Shown: positions 1,002 to 15,280 of the stretch, in pieces
How positions within the stretch are numbered: the stretch's first letter is position 1
How the letters are laid out: each line of letters starts with the position of its first letter
Assembly (NCBI GenBank): GCA_021813555.1
Contig: JAKAKG010000193.1
Coordinates: forward strand, 1 to 41,738
Source of the DNA: Acidobacteriota bacterium
GTDB taxonomy: Bacteria; Acidobacteriota; UBA4820; DSQY01
DNA: 41,738 nt
Direction: 5' to 3'
The notes under the pieces: generated by a model
What the model saw: the letters and a program-made list of their open reading frames with translations, nothing else
Databases searched by the model: none
What the model was told of the DNA's origin: nothing
Program-made: the position numbers and the translations under genes

Positions 1002-2297
1002 CTAGACCGCCACGGTCATGTGGGTGTGGGCCATGGGGCAGCGGCCCTCCCGGATGTGCGCCTCGAATTCATCACGGAACTGCGTGGCGAAGGCGATGGC
1101 GGGCATGGCCGCCGCATCGCCCAGGGGGCAGATGGTGCGTCCCATGATGTTGTTGGAGACGTCCAAAATGAGATCCACGTCGCCCGGCTTGCCTCCCCCC
1201 TCCTCGATGCGCTGGAGGATGAGCTTCAGCCAGTGCGTTCCCTCGCGGCAAGGCGTGCACTGCCCGCATGACTCGTGGGCGTAGAACTGCATCAGGTTGA
1301 CCATGGCTTTCACCATGCACACCGTATCGTTCATGACGATGACGCCCGCGGATCCCACCATGGTCCCCACCTTTTTCAGGCCGTCAGGATCCATGGTCAC
1401 GTCGATCTGGTCCGCCCGCAGGACGGGCACGGAGGAGCCGCCGGGGATGACAGCCTTGAGAGGACGGTCGCCGAGGATACCCCCCGCGTGCTCGTAGATG
1501 AGCTCGCGCAGGTTCACGCCCGAGGGCAGTTCGTAGACGCCCGGACGCTTCACGTGTCCCGAGACTCCGTAGAGCCTGGGACCCGGGGCGCTGGGCGCGC
1601 CGATGGCCGCGTACCATGCCCCGCCGTTCTTGATGATCAGCGGAACGTTGGCGTAGGTCTCCACGTTGTTGATGTTGGAAGGCTGGCCGTAGACGCCGAA
1701 GCCCGCGGGAAACGGAGGCTTGAGCCGCGGCTCGCCGCGCTTGCCCTCCAGCGAGTTCATGAGGGCCGTCTCCTCGCCGCAGATGTAGGCACCGGCGCCG
1801 CGCGACACATAGACGTCGAAGCTGAAACCGGAGCCCAGAATATTCTTGCCCAGGAATCCCCGCTCGTAGGCCTGATCCACGGCCCGCTGGAAGATGCGGA
1901 AACCCTGGGGCATCTCGCCCCGGATGTAGAAGAACGCGCCGGCGGCCTGAGTGGCGAAGCCGGCGAGGATCATACCTTCGAGGATCGCGTGGGGGTCGTT
2001 CTCGATGAGGAGCCGGTCCTTGAAGGTCCCCGGTTCGCTCTCGTCGGCGTTGCAGACGAGGTATTTGACCCGGTCCTTGCCTTTGGGAAGGAAGGACCAC
2101 TTGAGGCCCGCCGGGAAGCCCGCGCCGCCGCGTCCTTTGAGATTGCTCGCCTTGACCTCGCCCAGGACCTGCTCGGGGCTCATCTTGTGGAGGGCGGTCA
2201 TGAGCGGCTCATAGCCGCCCGAGGCCATGTATGAGTCCACGTTGGTGGAGTTGGCCTTCCCCACGTTTCTCGTCAGGAGCTTGAGGACCTCAGCCAT
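1002..2297 (-). CDS. nuoF: NADH-quinone oxidoreductase subunit F (NADH- and FMN-binding)
   Basis: NuoF oxidises NADH through FMN and passes electrons to the N3 [4Fe-4S] cluster at the tip of complex I. The 431-residue protein has the NADH/FMN-binding stretch (LKGRGGAGFPAGLKW), the flavin-site segment (CNADESEPGTFKDR) and the C-terminal cluster ligands (ESCGQCTPCREGT with a later TICPLGD). Its length is normal. I chose ATG 2297 (MAEVLK) because the longer open frame upstream is low-value sequence that runs through an intergenic inverted repeat. It follows nuoE after 138 bp, an unusually wide gap inside a nuo operon, and that gap is filled by the 9-nt-unit repeat described separately. Confidence 0.97.
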   Translation of the reverse strand: MAEVLKLLTRNVGKANSTNVDSYMASGGYEPLMTALHKMSPEQVLGEVKASNLKGRGGAGFPAGLKWSFLPKGKDRVKYLVCNADESEPGTFKDRLLIENDPHAILEGMILAGFATQAAGAFFYIRGEMPQGFRIFQRAVDQAYERGFLGKNILGSGFSFDVYVSRGAGAYICGEETALMNSLEGKRGEPRLKPPFPAGFGVYGQPSNINNVETYANVPLIIKNGGAWYAAIGAPSAPGPRLYGVSGHVKRPGVYELPSGVNLRELIYEHAGGILGDRPLKAVIPGGSSVPVLRADQIDVTMDPDGLKKVGTMVGSAGVIVMNDTVCMVKAMVNLMQFYAHESCGQCTPCREGTHWLKLILQRIEEGGGKPGDVDLILDVSNNIMGRTICPLGDAAAMPAIAFATQFRDEFEAHIREGRCPMAHTHMTVAV

Positions 2298-2324
2298 GGC
2301 ACCATCCCAAGAGATTAAACACTG

Positions 2325-2409
2325 AACCGCCAAGGCGCAAAGGGCGCAAAGGTCTTTCTCTGAAAGAATAAATCTCTTCATTCTTGGCGTTCTTGGCGTC
2401 TTTGCGGTT
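2325..2409. repeat. Imperfect inverted repeat made of 9-nt units, between nuoE and nuoF
   Basis: Each arm starts with AACCGC and continues with 9-nt units of the form (C/A)AAG-R-(G/A)CGC. The left arm (2325-2352) reads CAAGGCGCAAAGGGCGC, and the right arm (2383-2409) on the other strand reads AAAGACGCCAAGAACGCC. The two arms can pair over about 25 bases in RNA, with an AT-richer loop between them. It sits inside the nuo operon, so it would be transcribed between nuoE and nuoF, where it could act as an RNA stability element or an attenuator. Similar AACCGCAAAGACGCCAAG-type sequences are familiar intergenic repeats in many bacteria. That comparison is from memory and was not searched. Confidence 0.7.
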
Positions 2410-2435
2410 AAATTGTGGCCCTTTCATTGTCTTCG

Positions 2436-2927
2436 TCATTCCAACTCGCCAAGGATCCGGTCCGCGTCGGCGGGAGTCACGTGCCGGTGGAGGGTCTCGT
2501 TGACCATGAGGGCCGGTCCGCCGTCACAGCAGGCGATGCACTCGACGGTGATCAGGGTGAAGCGCCCGTCGCCCGAGGTCTGGCCGGGCTTAAGGGCGAG
2601 CTTGGCCTGAAGGTGCTCCAGGAGGATTTCTGACCCGGCGAGCATGCAGGGCAACGTCTTACACACCTGGAGAAGGTACCGGCCGAGCTGCTTCTCGCTG
2701 TACATCTCGTAGAAAGTCACCACGCCCCGAACGTGGGCGGGGGCCATGCCGAGCCTTTCGGCGATAAAGGCCTGGAACTCCACGGGAACGTGGCGGAGCT
2801 CGGCTTGGCACAGATGAAGCGCGGGCAGGAGGGCGGTGCGCGGTTCGGGGTAGGACTTGGCCAGGTCTTCCACCTTGGCCAGGAATTCGGAGTTCGCAAG
2901 CATCTCGGACACGTTCGCGTAGCTCAC
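2436..2927 (-). CDS. nuoE: NADH-quinone oxidoreductase subunit E ([2Fe-2S], thioredoxin-like)
   Basis: NuoE carries the off-pathway [2Fe-2S] cluster N1a next to NuoF. The 163-residue protein has the expected helical N-terminal half (YPEPRTALLPALHLCQ, VVTFYEMY) and the thioredoxin-like half with ligands CKTLPC and CIACC (CX4C and CX3C-type pairs). The start is taken as GTG 2927, whose bases overlap the nuoD stop (GTGA), with GGAGAGG a few bases upstream inside nuoD. An ATG eight codons later is possible, but the Shine-Dalgarno favours GTG. The four-base overlap implies translational coupling to nuoD. Confidence 0.95.
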   Translation of the reverse strand: MSYANVSEMLANSEFLAKVEDLAKSYPEPRTALLPALHLCQAELRHVPVEFQAFIAERLGMAPAHVRGVVTFYEMYSEKQLGRYLLQVCKTLPCMLAGSEILLEHLQAKLALKPGQTSGDGRFTLITVECIACCDGGPALMVNETLHRHVTPADADRILGELE

Positions 2928-4144
2928 CGGTCCACCTCTCCGAGCACGGGATCGAGCGAGGCGACGGTGGCCACCACGTCCGCCACCATCTGGCCCTCCA
3001 CCATCACGGGGAGCGCCTGCAGGTTCACGAAGCAGGGGCTCCGGAAGTGGCATCGGTGCGCCACGTTGGTGCCGGAACCCACGAGGTAGAAGCCCAGCTC
3101 TCCCTTGGTCGCCTCGATGGAGAAGTAGATCTCCTTGCCCCGTTCGGTCTTGGGACCCTCGGTGGCCACGATGAACTGGTGGATGAGCTCCTCCATTTTG
3201 GTGAGGACCCGGTCCTTCCGGGGCAGAAAAACCTTTTGAGATGCCGGATCGGTGGGGAAGAGCGGGCCCGAGGGGTCGTACTCCTTGAGCGCCTGCTCCA
3301 CGATGCGGATGCTCTGGCGCATCTCTTCCATGCGGACGAGGTACCGGTCGTAACAGTCGCCGTGCTCGCCCACCGGGATCTCGAAGTCGTACCGGTCGTA
3401 GCCGAGGTAGGGGTAGGCCTTGCGGATGTCCCACTCGACCCCTGCCGCGCGGAGGTTGGGCCCGCTCAGCCCCAGGTCGATGGCGTCCTCCGCGGAGATG
3501 GGCCCCACGTTCTGGTTCCGGTCGCACCAGATTTTGTTCCGGGTGAGGAGCTTGTCGACCTCGCTGATGGCGTCCTTCGTGAGGTCCATGACCTTGAGGA
3601 TGTCCCGCTCGATCCCCGCTTCCCAGTCCCGGGCGAGCCCGCCGATGCGGCCGTAGGAGACCGTGAACCTCGCGCCGGACATGCGCTCGAAGAGGTCCAT
3701 GATGCGCTCGCGGCCCGTGAACGCGTAGAAATAGACGGTTCCCGCGCCGATGTCCAAGCCCGCGGTGGCAAGCCAGAGGAGGTGGCTCGACAGGCGCCCC
3801 AGCTCCATGCAGACCACGCGCATGACGCGGCATTTCTCGGTGATCTGGAAGTCCACCAGCTTCTCGACGGCCATGGCCAGGCCCAGGTTGTTCACGACGG
3901 GTGCGAGGTAGTCCATCCGGTCGGTGTAGGGGATGGCCTGGTGGAGGGTCATGGTCTCGCAGATTTTCTCGATGCCTCGGTGAAGGTAGCCCACGTCGGG
4001 CCTGGCCGACACGACGACCTCGCCGTCCAGGGTCAACACGATGCGGAGCACCCCGTGGGTCGCCGGGTGTTGGGGGCCCATGTTGACGGTCACCAGCTCG
4101 GTGTTGAGGCCGAGGCGCTCGCGGTCCACGGTGGTGCGGTTCAA
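2924..4144 (-). CDS. nuoD: NADH-quinone oxidoreductase subunit D
   Basis: This is the 49-kDa-type subunit that forms the quinone-binding cavity with NuoB, and it is related to [NiFe]-hydrogenase large subunits. The 406-residue product has the family hallmarks MGPQHPATHGVLR, LHRGIEK, the YTDRMDY segment and the conserved C-terminal end GEVDR. I start it at TTG 4144 (leading into NRTTVDRERLG) because GGAGG lies 6-7 bases upstream. The open frame extends about nine codons further, but without a comparable signal. It is separate from nuoC, not fused as in E. coli. The nuoC-nuoD gap of 121 bp holds a 7-nt-period repeat that ends just before the Shine-Dalgarno. Confidence 0.95.
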   Translation of the reverse strand: MNRTTVDRERLGLNTELVTVNMGPQHPATHGVLRIVLTLDGEVVVSARPDVGYLHRGIEKICETMTLHQAIPYTDRMDYLAPVVNNLGLAMAVEKLVDFQITEKCRVMRVVCMELGRLSSHLLWLATAGLDIGAGTVYFYAFTGRERIMDLFERMSGARFTVSYGRIGGLARDWEAGIERDILKVMDLTKDAISEVDKLLTRNKIWCDRNQNVGPISAEDAIDLGLSGPNLRAAGVEWDIRKAYPYLGYDRYDFEIPVGEHGDCYDRYLVRMEEMRQSIRIVEQALKEYDPSGPLFPTDPASQKVFLPRKDRVLTKMEELIHQFIVATEGPKTERGKEIYFSIEATKGELGFYLVGSGTNVAHRCHFRSPCFVNLQALPVMVEGQMVADVVATVASLDPVLGEVDR

Positions 4145-4170
4145 GAGACGCCTCCGGGGGTGCAGAAGCA

Positions 4171-4250
4171 ATTGCGAAGTTCGAAGTGCGAAGTGCGAAT
4201 TGCGAAGTGGCAGGAGACAATTACTCCATTCGAAATTCGAAATTCGAAAT
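4171..4250. repeat. 7-nt-period array between nuoC and nuoD (TTCGAAN/TTGCGAA theme)
   Basis: Two adjacent blocks have an exact 7-nt period. At 4171-4210 the plus strand reads attgcga agttcga agtgcga agtgcga attgcga agtgg. At 4228-4250 it reads attcgaa three times in a row. TTCGAA is itself a palindrome, so the array looks similar on both strands. A 17-bp unrelated spacer (caggagacaattactcc) separates the blocks. It lies inside the nuo operon, after the nuoC stop and just before the nuoD Shine-Dalgarno. It is one member of the heptad-array family found through this window. Confidence 0.85.
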
Positions 4251-4265
4251 CACCCATTCTCGTTC

Positions 4266-4751
4266 TCACGGCTGGGACTCCTCCGGCGGCAGATAGTTCC
4301 GCCACTCGTCGTCTCCCTCCATAGGGTACTCCTTGCGGAGCGGGTGCCCCTCGAAATCCTCCGGCAGCATGATGCGCCGGAGGTCGGGGTGCCCCATGAA
4401 CATGATGCCCATGAGGTCGTACACCTCGCGCTCCAGCCAGTTGGCCGTGCGCCAGAGGTCGGCGACCGTTTCGATGGAGGGATCCTCCACGGGAAGCGCG
4501 GCGCGGACACGGACCTGCTCGCGGGTGGAGAGGTTCCTGATCTGGTAGACCACGTCGATGCGCCCCTCGTCGGGCCAGTGGGCGCAGGAGACGTCCACAA
4601 GGTAGTTGAACCCGCGCTCCGCCTTCATGAAGCGCAGGATCGCCTTGGCTTGGGCAGCCTCCACCACGAGGGTGGTCTCCCCGGGGGTCACGACGACCTC
4701 CTTGAGGGCATCGGGGAAGCGGTCTCGGATGTCGTTCGTCAGGTCGGCCAT
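4266..4751 (-). CDS. nuoC: NADH-quinone oxidoreductase subunit C
   Basis: NuoC is the 30-kDa-type subunit of the peripheral arm, which packs against NuoD and NuoB. The 161-residue protein contains the conserved stretch TANWLEREVYDLMGIMF followed by HPDLRRIMLPEDFEGHPLRK, diagnostic for this family. The N-terminal half (FNYLVDVSCAHWPDEGRIDVVY) is also typical. It starts at ATG 4751, 28 bp after the nuoB stop. Length and order are normal. The C terminus ends in a short polar tail (PPEESQP). Confidence 0.97.
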   Translation of the reverse strand: MADLTNDIRDRFPDALKEVVVTPGETTLVVEAAQAKAILRFMKAERGFNYLVDVSCAHWPDEGRIDVVYQIRNLSTREQVRVRAALPVEDPSIETVADLWRTANWLEREVYDLMGIMFMGHPDLRRIMLPEDFEGHPLRKEYPMEGDDEWRNYLPPEESQP

Positions 4752-4779
4752 GCGTCTTTTCGCTTCCCCGCGGTCTTGA

Positions 4780-5442
4780 TCAGCCGCCGTAGTAGCCCTT
4801 GCGCCAGGTCGGCGTGTCCTTGTCGTCCGGATTGCCTTCGAGCTGCTTCACGCCGGGATCCAGGACGGGGAGCGCGCCGTACTTCGGGTCGCGTCCGCGA
4901 TAGTGTCCGCTGCGGCGGCGCTCTCCGGCGGGCCGCCACTTCTCCTTCATGACGCGCTCCTGGATTTTCATGACGGCGTAAATGAGCGCCTCGGGCCTCG
5001 GCGGACAGCCCGGCACGTAGACGTCCACCGGGATGATGTGGTCGATGCCCTGGACCACGCTGTAGCTGTTGAACATGCCGCCGGTGGTCGTGCAGACTCC
5101 CATGGCGATGACCCACTTGGGTTCAGGCATCTGGTCGTAGATGCGCCGTGCCGCCGAGGCCATCTTTTTCGTGAGCGTGCCCGCGACGATCATGAGGTCG
5201 CACTGGCGGGGGGTGAAGCGCATGGCCTCCGCGCCGAAGCGGGCCAGGTCGTACCGGCTCGCCGCCACGGCCATCATTTCGATGGCGCAACAGGAGAGCC
5301 CGAAGGGCATGGGCCACAGGCTGTATTTGCGGGCCAGGTCCACGACCTTGGACAGGGTGCCCAAAACGACGCCGTCTTTGAGAAGCGCCAGGTCGTCTTG
5401 AGTCCGTGTATCAAGCGCGAGAGTTTCCGTATCTACTCCCAT
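4780..5442 (-). CDS. nuoB: NADH-quinone oxidoreductase subunit B (N2 cluster)
   Basis: NuoB holds cluster N2, the [4Fe-4S] centre that hands electrons to quinone. The 220-residue protein shows the tandem-cysteine motif ([11 protein letters not shown]), the downstream ligand region ([14 protein letters not shown]) and the last ligand ([11 protein letters not shown]). The C-terminal tail of about 50 charged residues ([16 protein letters not shown]) is longer than in E. coli but ordinary for the bacterial family. The start at ATG 5442 overlaps the end of nuoA by 10 bp. Confidence 0.97.
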
Positions 5443-5804
5443 CGCAAAGCGCCTTTCTTGAGGGCGTACACGTAGCCCACGAGGAGGATCGCCAGGAAGA
5501 GGAGCAGTTCGCCGTACACGAAGAGCCCCCAGCCCGCGGCCACCCGCTCGCGGTATACGGCCGCCACCGGGAACAGGAAGAGGGTTTCCACATCAAACAG
5601 GAGGAAAAGAAGAGCCACCACGTAATACCGAACCGAAACGCGCCTGAAGGGCTCGTCCATGGGGTCCAAGCCGCATTCATAGGGCGTCAGCAGAGTCCTG
5701 GAGCGGCGCACGTAGCCCAGGAGCCACGAAGCCACCGCCAGCCCGACGGCGATGCACATCGCCACCGCAACCATGATCAGGATCGGCAGATATGCGCTCT
5801 GCAT
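5433..5804 (-). CDS. nuoA: NADH-quinone oxidoreductase subunit A
   Basis: NuoA is a small membrane subunit at the junction of the two arms of complex I. The 123-residue protein has three predicted membrane helices (about 6-30, 60-85 and 92-115) and the conserved loop [20 protein letters not shown] between the first two, which carries the family cysteine. The acidic residues [12 protein letters not shown] in helix 2 are also typical. It is the first gene of the operon, with a sigma-70-like promoter about 60-90 bp upstream. Confidence 0.96.
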
Positions 5805-6021: not shown

Positions 6022-7641
6022 CTATTCCAGGAAGCCCTCGCTGACGTACTGGCCGCCTCGCTGCTTGAGCCACACGTCCTTGGGCACGCTGAACTCGCGC
6101 TCCACCTCGTCCCGGAATACGTGGCCCGAATTGTAGGTGCAGAAGGGGTAGATGCGGCCCCGGGGCGTGCTGTAGTGGATGGTGCAATTCTTGACCCGGC
6201 TCACCTGGTAGTTGTAGGCATCCATGAAGTGCATGGAGGCCACGAGGAGAAGACGCCACTCGTAGCGCCGCTTCTTGGCGATGCCCATGAGGCGCTTCCC
6301 CGAAATGGCATCCACGGTCTTAGCCATTTGGAGGAAGTTGAGGCCCGGCGGTGCCTTATCTGGGCGGTAGGTCTTCATCAGGATGTTGAAGATCTGGGCG
6401 GTGGTGTACAGGCGCGAGGGCCTTCGGCGGGTCTTGCGGCCCAGTTCGTCCATAAGCAGGAGGGCCCGGTCGATGTCGAACACCTCATTGAGAGGGGCCG
6501 TGGCTCCCGTGCGCTGGTTCACCAGGAGATAGGCCGATACGCCGCAGCCGGGATGGGCGCTGCAGTGCATGGGGAGGAATCCGTTGGCGTCTGCGCCCAA
6601 GACGTTCTCCGCCACCCTCGTGAAGGGCACGGTGATGCTGAAGGGATACCAGTCCCGCTCCGCCTTGAGCAGGCCCGTCTGGCGCTCGATATCCAGGGCC
6701 ACGTCGGCGCTGGTGTAGCGCCGGGCCAGGCGTTCCGCCTGGTCGATGCGCCCCGTGAAGGAGACGGGCTGGGGAGCCACGCCCACGATGACGTCCATGT
6801 GGGCGAGGGCGAATTTCAGGATGTCACCCAGCTGGTGGTCGTTCACCCCTTTGATGAGCGTGGGGACGAGGGTCACGCGAATCCCCGCTCGGCGGAAGGC
6901 CTCCAGCGCCTTGAGCTTGATCTCGTAGAGGCCCTTGACGCCGCGGGTGACTCGGTGGACCTCGTCGTCCACCCCGTCGAACTGGAGGTAGGCGGCGTTG
7001 AGGCCCGCCTCCGCGGCCTTCTCGGCGAAACCCTCCTCTTGGGCGAAGCGGATGCCGTTGGTGGCCGCCTGGATCATCTTGACGCCTCTGGACTTGGCCA
7101 GGCGGCAGGCCTCGATGAAGTGGGGGGAGAGGGTCGGCTCCCCGCCGGAGAACTGGATCGCCTGCATGCGGCGCGGCCTCATGGCGAGGGCTTGGTCAAT
7201 CATGGCCTCGATCTGGGCCAGGCTCGGCTCGTACACGTAAGGCTGCACGTTGGCGTTGGCAAAACAGTAAGGGCAGCGCAGGTTGCAGCGGTTGGTCAGG
7301 TCCAGGTTGGTGAGGGCCGCGTGGGACCGGTGGCCCGCACAGAGCCCGCAGCCGTGGGGACACGAGCCGGAATCTGGCTCCATGGGATTCTCGAAGTCCA
7401 CCGACCCGTCCACGGCGTAGCGCTCCATTCTCAGAAAGACCGCCGAGTTGGACGAGACGATGTCTTCGAAAGGGCCGTGCTGCGGACACGTCTTGCGCAT
7501 GACGACCTTGCCGCCCTCCTCCGCGAGGTCCGCGGAAATGACGGCCAGGCATTCGGGACAAAGGGAGTCTTCCTTTCGAGGGAGCCCCAACGGCACCTCG
7601 GGAGCCTGATCCGCAAGCAAGGGTTTGTGCCTGGTGGTCAT
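6022..7641 (-). CDS. tes: Radical SAM protein of the tetraether lipid synthase (Tes/MJ0619) family
   Basis: The 539-residue protein matches the Tes/MJ0619 radical SAM family, which in archaea joins two lipid chains tail to tail to build membrane-spanning tetraethers. The cysteine plan fits: an N-terminal rubredoxin-like pair CPEC (28-31) with a later CPQHG (52), a second cluster motif CPHGCGLC (94-101), the SAM-cluster motif CNLRCPYC (CX3CX2C, 119-126), SGGEPT (165-170), and C-terminal cysteines near 360, 366, 486 and 501. Family-typical stretches are RCNLRCPYCFANANV, AYLQFDGVDDEV, VPTLIKGVNDHQ and QPVSFTGRID. The start is ATG 7641. It lies 25 bp after a PHP phosphoesterase gene, probably co-transcribed. 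Substrate and product in this bacterium are inferred; an older role proposed for MJ0619 was pterin methylation. Confidence 0.8.
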   Translation of the reverse strand: MTTRHKPLLADQAPEVPLGLPRKEDSLCPECLAVISADLAEEGGKVVMRKTCPQHGPFEDIVSSNSAVFLRMERYAVDGSVDFENPMEPDSGSCPHGCGLCAGHRSHAALTNLDLTNRCNLRCPYCFANANVQPYVYEPSLAQIEAMIDQALAMRPRRMQAIQFSGGEPTLSPHFIEACRLAKSRGVKMIQAATNGIRFAQEEGFAEKAAEAGLNAAYLQFDGVDDEVHRVTRGVKGLYEIKLKALEAFRRAGIRVTLVPTLIKGVNDHQLGDILKFALAHMDVIVGVAPQPVSFTGRIDQAERLARRYTSADVALDIERQTGLLKAERDWYPFSITVPFTRVAENVLGADANGFLPMHCSAHPGCGVSAYLLVNQRTGATAPLNEVFDIDRALLLMDELGRKTRRRPSRLYTTAQIFNILMKTYRPDKAPPGLNFLQMAKTVDAISGKRLMGIAKKRRYEWRLLLVASMHFMDAYNYQVSRVKNCTIHYSTPRGRIYPFCTYNSGHVFRDEVEREFSVPKDVWLKQRGGQYVSEGFLE

Positions 7642-8743: not shown

Positions 8744-9727
8744 CTACCTCCCAAGCCCCTTGAGAAGATCTTTGAAGGAGGGCTTCTTCTTCGGCTGGTT
8801 CTGTTGCTCCTGCTGCTGGCCTTCTTGGGAGGAGGAAGCTTCTGCCCCCTCCTCGCCCCCGCTTCCACCTTGCTTGAACATGTTCTTCATCATGGAGCCG
8901 GCGCCGAATTCGGTTTTGGTGTACCCCGAGGGGAGATCGAAGGTTCCCGGCAACATGGCCGTAAGCTGGATATCTTTGGTGGTGTAAGTGGTGGTTCCCT
9001 CGTCCTTCCCGTTCACGAATCGGTGGCTCACGATCTGGACGGGGAAGCCCAGGAACCCGACCTTGGCGGCGATGGACTTGTCGAACTCCTTGTCCCCCGT
9101 CACCATGCCCATCGCTTGCCAGTTGCGCCCGCCGAAAAGAGTCAGGGCGTCGTACGCGTTGGTCGTGTAGTAGTCGGTCGTCTCTTCCGTGTGGGATTTG
9201 CTTGAGAATCCCATGACCTTCGCCGACGTGTCGTAGGACAGGGCCACCCGCTTGCCCTGGCAGAGTGTTCCCTCCACCAGCTTGGGGGGAAGCGCCGTCA
9301 CGTCCGCCTTCTGATTCGCGTAGGTGATCTTCATGGACTGGGCCATGCTGCTGGCCGCGCTCTGCAGCCGCTCCGTGTCCATCTCGATGTACTCTTTCTT
9401 GTCGGGAAACACGAAATATCCCTTCTTAGCGGCGGCGTCCCCGAGCAAGTAGCTGCCCTTGCCGAAAAGCCCGAAGTCGGTGAGGTACGTCATCTTGAAT
9501 TTGCCGCCCTCGGCCCTGGCCTCGAACTCATACCCCACAAAGGCATCGGGATTCAGGCCCATCTGGCGCATGTTCGCCTTTTCTTCGGCGGACATTTTCT
9601 CCGCCTTGGCCTGCGAGTCACCGCCTTCCACCATGACGGATCCCTTGTAGTAGATGCCCAACCCGGCCGCGTGAGACTGCAGGCTCAGCGCCGCAATCGC
9701 AGCGGCCAACAATAGCGTCGTTTTCAT
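8744..9727 (-). CDS. Secreted protein of unknown function (DUF4412-like)
   Basis: The 327-residue product begins with a clear signal peptide (MKTTLLLAAAIAALSLQSHAA), so it is exported. The body has repeated beta-strand-like segments (FKMTYLTDFG, KGYFVFPDKKEYIEMD, GKRVALSYDT, FPVQIVSHRF) and resembles, from memory, the DUF4412 family of periplasmic proteins. A Gly/Glu/Gln-rich low-complexity stretch (GGEEGAEASS, QEGQQQEQQNQ) precedes a basic C-terminal tail. I start it at ATG 9727 because GGAGGAAT lies just upstream; the longer frame has no signal. It has its own promoter and a downstream hairpin, so it looks monocistronic. The role is unknown. Confidence 0.8.
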   Translation of the reverse strand: MKTTLLLAAAIAALSLQSHAAGLGIYYKGSVMVEGGDSQAKAEKMSAEEKANMRQMGLNPDAFVGYEFEARAEGGKFKMTYLTDFGLFGKGSYLLGDAAAKKGYFVFPDKKEYIEMDTERLQSAASSMAQSMKITYANQKADVTALPPKLVEGTLCQGKRVALSYDTSAKVMGFSSKSHTEETTDYYTTNAYDALTLFGGRNWQAMGMVTGDKEFDKSIAAKVGFLGFPVQIVSHRFVNGKDEGTTTYTTKDIQLTAMLPGTFDLPSGYTKTEFGAGSMMKNMFKQGGSGGEEGAEASSSQEGQQQEQQNQPKKKPSFKDLLKGLGR

Positions 9728-9759
9728 GATCCATTCCTCCCTGGTCAACGACCATGAAG

Positions 9760-9788
9760 AGCATAACCAAAGATACACGGCACCTCAA
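9760..9788 (-). promoter_or_regulatory. Promoter of the secreted-protein gene
   Basis: On the minus strand TTGAGG (-35, 9783-9788) and TATGCT (-10, 9760-9765) are separated by exactly 17 bp. Each matches the consensus at four of six positions. Transcription would start near 9753, 26 bases before the ATG. Confidence 0.5.
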
Positions 9789-12574: not shown

Positions 12575-15280
12575 ATGGTCAAGGTCTCTCGTTTAGCGAG
12601 GTTCACCCTTCTGGCCGTCTTGGGCCTGGCGCTCGGCATCGCCGTTCTCGCCGCGGCACCCCCGTTCCCCATCACCTGGCAAGGGGTCAAGGCGCCCTTG
12701 CCGCAAAGCGCCGGCTGGTCGGGAGTGGCCACCGTGAACGGCAAGATCTACGTCTTCGGCGGCCTCACGGGCACCGAGACGGAGAACTCTCTCACCCTCA
12801 ACACCACCCAGATATACGACCCCTCGTCCGACACGTGGACCGCCGGTGCGGCCATGCCTACGGCGCGGTACCTGTGCACCGCAGCCGTCGTGGGCGGAAA
12901 GATCTACGTCATGGGCGGCCGAACCATCGACTCCTCCGGCGCGGGCGGCCCCGTTGACGTGAACGAGGTCTACGATCCGGCCACCAACACCTGGACCACG
13001 GCCAAAAATACGCCGTCCCCCATCCGGGGTCAGATGTCAGCGGTATGGAACAACAAGATCTACCTATTTGGAGGCAACACGGGCACCTACCAGAAGACCG
13101 TGAACATCTACGATCCGGCCTCCAACGCCTGGAGCACCGGCGCCAGCATGCCCGTGGTGCGTGCCTACGGTGCGGCCGTGGCGGTGCCTTCCAAGAACCG
13201 CATCTACGTCATCGGCGGCGACAACGGCGGGACCACCGCCTCCAAGTACATCGGCAACGCCATCTCCTACGATCCCGCGGGCAATACGTGGGACTCCACG
13301 ACTATCCCCATGGTCTCGGGTGAGTTCACCTCCAACTTCGGCGCCGCCCTCGGAGACGACGGCAAGGTCTACGTTTTCCCCGGCAGCAAGTGGAACACTT
13401 CGGTCAGCCCGCCCGCCGATAACGGCTATTCGGGCGTCATCCAAATCCTGGACCCCGCCGCCGGAACCATGACGGCCTTCACCGGCCATTCCCCGAGTCC
13501 CCTCGTCCGCAACGAAGCGGGCGCCATCAATGTTGGCGGCAAGATCTACGTCATCGGCGGCGCTTCCGGCTTCCGCGTCGTGGACGTTTTTGACCCGGCC
13601 ACGGGAACCTTCTTCGAGCCCAACAAGCCCGTACCCAATTACGTGGGCTCCGCTGCGGCACAGGCCGTCAACGGCAAGATCTACGTCATCGGCGGCGGCA
13701 ACGGGGGCGGCATGAACAGCGCCGTCTACGTCTACGACCCCGCCTCGGGCACCTGGACCACGGCTAGCGCCACCAATCCCAAACCCCTGTTCAGCCCCGT
13801 GGCGGACGTGTGGAACGGCAAGATCGCTATGGCCGATGGGGCCACCAGTTCAGGCGTGGACGGGAGCGCCCAGATTTACGATCCGGCCGCCGGCACCTTC
13901 ACCGCCATGGCCACCGATCCCAACGCCACCAACGTGGCCTGCGGCGCCGTGGTGGGGAATGCCCTTTACGTCTTCGGCGGCTACAACGGCACGGCCGATG
14001 TGGCGGCTGTCCGGGCGCTGGACCTCAGCGCCAACACCTGGAGCACCAAGGCCAACCTCCCCAACGCCATGGAGGCCGGCACCGCCGTCGCCTACAATGG
14101 TAAGATCTACATCTTCGGCGGGTACGTCGGCTCCGCAACGACGTCCAACCTGAACGAAAACGTGATCATCTACGACCCGGCGGGCAATACCTTCTCCACC
14201 GGAGCCGCTTTCCCCATTCCCATCTACGAAGCGGCGGCGACGGTGTATAACAACCACATCATCATCTCCGGCGGCCGAAACCTTTACAACCAGGGCGTCA
14301 CCAACTACTACCGATTGGCTCCCTTCATCCAAGTGTACGATCCCGCGGCGGATTCATTCACCTCGGCTCAAGGCCTTTACAGCCGTGCCAATCACAAGAT
14401 CTGCGTCGTGAACGGCCTCCTCTACCAGGTGGGAGGTGACGACGGCAACAGCTACGGATTCCTCGAAGACCGCCTCGACATCGCCAACCTCGGCGGCGGC
14501 CCCAGCCCCCTGGCCGCTCATGCCTCCGCCGACAAGACGGGCGGCGCCACGCCGCTGGCCGTCCAGTTCACGGGTTCCGCCTCGGGCGGAACGGGCCCTT
14601 ACACCTACTCGTGGAACTTCGGTGACGGCAGCGCCGCTTCGACGAGCCAGAATCCCTCTCACACGTACACAGCGGCGGGGACCTTCAATGCCGTCCTGAC
14701 GGTGAAGGATTCCACCAACGCCACGGCCACCGCCCAGGTCACCATCACTCCCGGCGCCGCGGCCCTCGTGGCCACCGCCTCGGCGGACAAGACCTCGGGG
14801 TCCAAGCCGCTGGCCGTCCAGTTCACGGGCTCCGCCTCGGGCGGCACGGCTCCCTACACTTACTCCTGGAACTTCGGTGACGGCAGCGCCGCTTCAACGG
14901 TGCAGAACCCGTCTTACACGTACGCCGACGCTGGGACTTACCACGTCACCCTCACGGTGACCGACAGCAAGAGCGCCACGGCCACGGACACCCACCTGGC
15001 CATCACCGTCACGGCTGCTGCTCCGCCCGTAGTGACCCTCATGAAGAAGGCCGCTCCCCCCGCCGCCTTCACCCTCATCGTGACGGGGAGCAACCTGCAA
15101 GCCAACATGAAGGTGTACATCAACGAAACGCAGTGGACCAACGTGCAGTACAAGACCACCGCCAAAATCAAGATCGCGGGCGGCAAGGCGCTCAAGGCTC
15201 TGGTGCCCAAGGGCCAGACCACGCACTTCCGCTTCGAGAATCCCGACGGCGGCGAGACCACCTACGACTTCCACTACTAG
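12575..15280 (+). CDS. Large secreted Kelch-repeat protein with two PKD domains
   Basis: The 901-residue protein has a signal peptide (about 1-28). Residues about 30-640 form many Kelch repeats, each with a strand such as NGKIYVFGG and a later YDPASNTW; together they probably make one or two beta-propellers. Two PKD domains follow (about 645-730 and 731-815; YTYSWNFGDGSAAST in both), nearly identical at DNA level. The last 85 residues (from PPVVTLMKK) form an IPT-like domain that also ends the IPT-repeat protein at 25.7 kb. ATG 12575 has GGGAGGAA just upstream. Expected location is the cell surface or outside, binding carbohydrate or protein. There are no catalytic motifs. It is a single gene with a strong terminator. 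Confidence 0.9.
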   Translation: MVKVSRLARFTLLAVLGLALGIAVLAAAPPFPITWQGVKAPLPQSAGWSGVATVNGKIYVFGGLTGTETENSLTLNTTQIYDPSSDTWTAGAAMPTARYLCTAAVVGGKIYVMGGRTIDSSGAGGPVDVNEVYDPATNTWTTAKNTPSPIRGQMSAVWNNKIYLFGGNTGTYQKTVNIYDPASNAWSTGASMPVVRAYGAAVAVPSKNRIYVIGGDNGGTTASKYIGNAISYDPAGNTWDSTTIPMVSGEFTSNFGAALGDDGKVYVFPGSKWNTSVSPPADNGYSGVIQILDPAAGTMTAFTGHSPSPLVRNEAGAINVGGKIYVIGGASGFRVVDVFDPATGTFFEPNKPVPNYVGSAAAQAVNGKIYVIGGGNGGGMNSAVYVYDPASGTWTTASATNPKPLFSPVADVWNGKIAMADGATSSGVDGSAQIYDPAAGTFTAMATDPNATNVACGAVVGNALYVFGGYNGTADVAAVRALDLSANTWSTKANLPNAMEAGTAVAYNGKIYIFGGYVGSATTSNLNENVIIYDPAGNTFSTGAAFPIPIYEAAATVYNNHIIISGGRNLYNQGVTNYYRLAPFIQVYDPAADSFTSAQGLYSRANHKICVVNGLLYQVGGDDGNSYGFLEDRLDIANLGGGPSPLAAHASADKTGGATPLAVQFTGSASGGTGPYTYSWNFGDGSAASTSQNPSHTYTAAGTFNAVLTVKDSTNATATAQVTITPGAAALVATASADKTSGSKPLAVQFTGSASGGTAPYTYSWNFGDGSAASTVQNPSYTYADAGTYHVTLTVTDSKSATATDTHLAITVTAAAPPVVTLMKKAAPPAAFTLIVTGSNLQANMKVYINETQWTNVQYKTTAKIKIAGGKALKALVPKGQTTHFRFENPDGGETTYDFHY
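14551..14895 (+). repeat. Near-identical DNA copies of a PKD-module core
   Basis: The segment at 14551-14640 recurs at 14806-14895, an offset of 255 bp (85 codons), with only scattered mostly third-position changes. Both encode LAVQFTGSASGGT and YTYSWNFGDGSAAS. This marks a fairly recent in-frame duplication of one PKD domain. Confidence 0.9.

Follow-up and report, generated by a model that had tools for sequence, protein, structure and literature searches.

Branched tetraethers are proxies for past temperature and pH. To our knowledge, the bacterial enzymes that weld lipid tails together to form these compounds are not settled, and acidobacteria are the main suspects. Among the described systems, the archaeal tetraether synthase Tes, or GDGT-MAS (MJ0619, PDB 7tol/7tom), has been crystallized from M. 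jannaschii (MjTes), and the crystal held a bound bacterial phosphatidic acid from E. coli, which makes the coupling of fatty-acyl tails chemically reasonable (PMC9433317). Tes homologues of acidobacteria were published in 2022-23 along with a proposed role in branched tetraethers, or brGDGTs (PMC8941075, PMC10087280; see also PMC11868695); the proposal of an acidobacterial Tes is therefore not novel in itself (PMC8941075, PMC10087280), and the activity of the bacterial enzymes is unconfirmed (PMC11868695). Iso-diabolic acid is a major membrane component in most acidobacteria, and S. usitatus, which has PlsAR and Tes, makes ethers and does not make iso-diabolic acid (PMC10087280). The protein described here resembles archaeal Tes in its full-length homology, its fold and four iron centres with all of their ligands; it differs in being about 38% identical and somewhat longer, in having a PHP hydrolase gene upstream, and in a bacterial host without archaeal lipid genes over the search cut-offs. 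With the short-form bacterial Tes of Zeng et al. (2022) and Halamka et al. (2023) it shares the family, the ligands and the phylum Acidobacteriota, but it lies in a separate clade, and its GTDB family lacks the PlsA/Ger-type gene that the others nearly always have. Mss of Thermotoga and Bacillota is similar by description, in that the same chemistry is expected on fatty-acyl lipids and its models are reported to share the Tes architecture (PMC13274423).

The window, the whole stretch of 41,738 nucleotides analysed here, comes from an uncultured metagenome-assembled genome (MAG) that is 98.6% complete and in which gene absences rest on family searches. The 539-residue protein given in the initial annotation kept its length and span, with the gene now placed on the minus strand (Table 1), where it starts with ATG after a good ribosome-binding site and ends in a stop codon. 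An overlapping open reading frame on the plus strand was rejected as spurious (GC at the three codon positions of 0.82, 0.49 and 0.62 on the plus strand versus 0.63, 0.44 and 0.88 on the minus strand). Genes of the complex I operon follow tes, with the start of nuoG also present after nuoF on the same strand, and the gap of 217 bp between tes and nuo contains a sigma70-like TTGACA-N17-TAGGCT recognized by eye. A relative with 97% identity was found in Acidobacteria bacterium BP8.bin17. The MAGs L003 and L004, with about 70% identity, repeat the tes-nuo order. Because this order recurs in independently binned MAGs, tes is considered chromosomal and not a binning contamination, in line with the location on the normal chromosome that was first deduced from the respiratory neighbours. 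The origin from Acidobacteriota was likewise supported.

Table 1. Positions in the window of tes, its predicted metal sites and neighbouring genes.
Feature	Position	Strand	Basis or remark
nuoA, B, C, D, E, F (complex I operon; context only)	1002..5804	minus	downstream of tes
tes, Tes-family radical SAM lipid-coupling enzyme (predicted), 539 aa	6022..7641	minus	NF045702, PDB 7tol
C-terminal auxiliary cluster C366, M470, C486, C501, and Y490	6139..6546	minus	aligns with MjTes C338, M439, C455, C470, Y459
Radical SAM motif C119-X3-C123-X2-C126	7264..7287	minus	aligns with MjTes C98, C102, C105
N-terminal auxiliary [4Fe-4S] C94-X3-C98-X2-C101-X2-H104	7330..7362	minus	aligns with MjTes C73, C77, C80, H83
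Rubredoxin-type Fe site C28-X2-C31-X20-C52-X2-H55	7477..7560	minus	aligns with MjTes C9, C12, C33, H36
PHP / CehA-McbA-like metallohydrolase, 313 aa	7667..8608	minus	Pfam PHP_C 39 bits; 25 bp upstream of tes

Several lines of evidence place the protein in the Tes family, as the annotation had proposed, and agree on sequence and fold. The NCBIfam model of tetraether lipid synthase Tes (NF045702) matched residues 25-520 over profile positions 3-485 of 486 with 493.3 bits (cut-off 450; E 6.7e-148), Pfam Radical_SAM gave 111.7 bits, and phmmer aligned the archaeal GDGT-MAS 7tol/7tom over residues 20-527 (E 1.8e-110 for PDB 7tol). The two peptides quoted earlier as family stretches, VPTLIKGVNDHQ and QPVSFTGRID, are both found in the translation. 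An AlphaFold model (pLDDT 86.5, pTM 0.90) was compared by Foldseek with the Tes crystal structure 7tol, resulting in a TMq of 0.84 and a TMt of 0.91 over 508 columns, and the next-best solved radical SAM enzymes had a TMq of 0.35 or lower. The query was also aligned with the 7tol sequence and 93 other homologues, using the MjTes ligands of PMC9433317. In this alignment, the enzyme retains all known metal ligands of the four iron centres, with every MjTes ligand having a counterpart, and the rubredoxin-type, auxiliary, radical SAM and C-terminal sites follow one another in the order first noted. For the C-terminal cluster, the cysteines C366, C486 and C501 were assigned by conservation and the methionine from PMC9433317; M470, C486 and C501 are near-invariant among the 95 homologues, and Q291, R298 and Y490 are also conserved. 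No second Tes was found among the radical SAM proteins scanned in the same genome.

A maximum-likelihood tree of 87 proteins, built without a non-Tes outgroup and with no root inferred, put nearly all bacterial Tes in one group (support 100/99) that contains the query and is apart from archaeal Tes. Neither of the two sequence-based signs that the initial annotation had listed as counter-evidence, a position in a non-Tes clade or the loss of cluster ligands, was observed. The query grouped with its own GTDB family (100/100), and this family formed one group, also with 100/100, together with another short form (L091) and the long form of acidobacteria (L099-L101 and L008b); the grouping of the family with the long form to the exclusion of L091 was weaker (95/68), and the long-form branch is long. 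The archaeal rows nearest to bacterial Tes are two Thermoplasmatota MAGs. These Candidatus Thermoplasmatota contigs (L018 and L026) carry a Tes that clusters with the bacterial and not with the other archaeal proteins, which may reflect either transfer or a binning error.

The long form emerged from a survey of 199 genomes of the phylum, in which Tes scored over the NF045702 cut-off in 27 and many more genomes carried a relative of 630-850 aa scoring 310-350 bits with the same model, under the cut-off. All four ligands of the N-terminal auxiliary cluster are missing in 37/37 long-form copies checked, whereas the query retains them. The rubredoxin, radical SAM and C-terminal cluster ligands are kept in these 37 copies, except for the rubredoxin histidine, lost in one. 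Besides falling into the same supported tree group as the query, the long form shares the PHP neighbour in some genomes. Short and long forms occur in tandem in a Solibacteraceae MAG (L008), in keeping with a published account of two Tes homologues in S. usitatus (PMC10087280).

The PHP hydrolase is probably an operon partner of tes. Its gene is the immediate upstream neighbour of tes in the window, in the 97% relative (L002) and in two more genomes (G091 and G109), lies one gene away in L004, and is adjacent to tes or one gene off wherever the contig permits checking. Within the query's GTDB family, the hydrolase was found in 7/7 genomes bearing tes (one tes being a contig-end fragment, G127), and it was absent from the two genomes without tes, save for one fragment of 20 bits. 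It also precedes the long-form tes in f47 and f18 genomes, where it is accompanied by genes for a sensor kinase and for regulators of the sigma54 type and of the Rrf2 family. The protein scored 65 bits with NF038032, under the cut-off of 80, and no solved relative was found by sequence; its reaction therefore stays guesswork.

Considered as a whole, the findings are best explained by a Tes that probably couples ester-linked fatty-acyl tails into a membrane-spanning lipid of the diabolic-acid type, with the PHP hydrolase probably acting in the same pathway. The choice between ester and ether lipids depends largely on PF09989, which we take to be a domain of PlsA/Ger-type ether enzymes and which was detected in the T. 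maritima control. The domain is absent from the query's genome and from all 9 sampled genomes of its GTDB family (0/6 of those with short-form tes). Outside the family, it was present in 19/21 genomes with short-form Tes versus 31/169 without it (Fisher p 7e-11, an optimistic value given that the genomes are related), and in 12/80 genomes having the long form only, the form with which the query's family groups in the tree. Since the domain also occurs in other proteins, its absence is stronger evidence than its presence. As the PlsA/Ger-type enzyme is absent family-wide, a tetraether product, as the title of the initial annotation suggests, is doubtful for this lineage and an ester-linked one fits better. 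The ether-route search consisted of PF09989, with the ElbD and Agps routes outside its reach, and PF07993, used as a proxy for ElbD, gave weak, non-diagnostic matches. It is nevertheless conceivable, if rather unlikely, that true branched tetraethers are made, with an unrecognised enzyme forming the ether bonds and Tes condensing diethers, as has been proposed for Solibacter usitatus. The literature already proposes such a product for acidobacterial Tes (PMC8941075, PMC10087280), and the tandem of both forms in the Solibacteraceae MAG is in its favour, but the family-wide lack of PF09989 and the poor PF07993 matches argue against it. A point against the favoured reading is that the only E1 keto-acid dehydrogenases found (PF00676, a proxy for branched-chain precursors) were PDH-like and of the 2-oxoglutarate type, which lends no specific support to an iso-branched-chain route.

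Less probable still is a change of function within the Tes family, towards a different hydrophobic substrate or a different reaction, such as the pterin methylation once assigned to MJ0619 or a TrsS-like role. Pfam calls the N-terminus an HMPTM zinc ribbon, Halobacteria have Tes homologues without GDGTs (PMC8941075), and the TrsS model (NF045646) did match with 318.5 bits. This score is well under the cut-off of 490, however, and a TrsS identity was rejected; all Tes-specific ligands are kept, those of the C-terminal cluster included, and the authors of the MjTes structure failed to corroborate a methylase role (PMC9433317). It is highly improbable that the bacterium has a mixed membrane with isoprenoid GDGTs of the archaeal type: the enzyme family is shared with archaea and its nearest archaeal relatives are the two Thermoplasmatota MAGs, but in the 98.6% complete genome GGGPS (PF01884) reached 19.8 bits against a cut-off of 23.9 and the G1P-dehydrogenase family (PF13685) gave nothing over cut-off, which makes archaeal lipids unlikely and bears out the earlier preference for a fatty-acyl over an isoprenoid substrate.

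By analogy with M. jannaschii Tes, for which the mechanism has been shown, the fatty-acyl coupling favoured here would consume two SAM, with one hydrogen taken from the terminal carbon of either lipid tail. The radical formed first would be parked on the C-terminal auxiliary cluster through a carbon-sulfur bond until the tails are joined sp3-sp3. The substrates would most likely be ester-linked fatty-acyl (probably iso-branched) phospholipids and the product an (iso-)diabolic-acid-type membrane-spanning lipid instead of a tetraether. The PHP hydrolase would probably belong to the same pathway and, speculatively, might act on, for example, the phosphate head group. A bolder version, put forward tentatively, is that the enzyme with its PHP partner is a 'tetraester synthase' dedicated to ester-linked fatty-acyl phospholipids and a relative, with all four centres, of the long form, that the long form, having lost the N-terminal cluster, is the candidate iso-diabolic-acid synthase of the phylum, and that the two Tes lineages correspond to ether (with PlsA) and ester (without PlsA) lipids. 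The comparison offers a testable split between short-form Tes with PlsA on one side and the Tes of the query's family and the long form, mostly without PlsA, on the other. From this split it can be predicted whether a given acidobacterium makes tetraethers or membrane-spanning lipids with ester links, and the PHP partner and the long form stand out as two candidate genes. A non-exhaustive literature search found no earlier report of this division into lineages, of a long form devoid of the N-terminal cluster, of the PHP pairing or of the PlsA contrast.

Other genes near tes were also recorded. A sensor kinase and a sigma54-type regulator lie upstream of tes on three contigs (L150:527-7749, L147 and L142), with an Rrf2 iron-sulfur-type regulator on L150 and L147, and a kinase-regulator pair precedes the tes of L091; these regulators hint at redox control of an oxygen-sensitive enzyme. 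In three distant lineages, tes adjoins a gene for a B12-binding radical SAM protein, the three proteins belonging to one family (L004:8497-9840, L028:11785-13332 and L035:13311-14663, all on the plus strand); in L004 this is the gene between PHP and tes. None of these relatives scored over a curated cut-off; the query's genome encodes one elsewhere (L130, 33%), and the protein is possibly a lipid-modifying partner. Upstream of PHP, a 344-aa protein (8744-9778, minus strand) had neither a Pfam or NCBIfam match nor a relative near other tes genes, and has a signal-peptide-like N-terminus. Further along the window, positions 12575-15280 on the plus strand encode a 901-aa protein that combines Kelch repeats with PKD domains and is probably extracellular.
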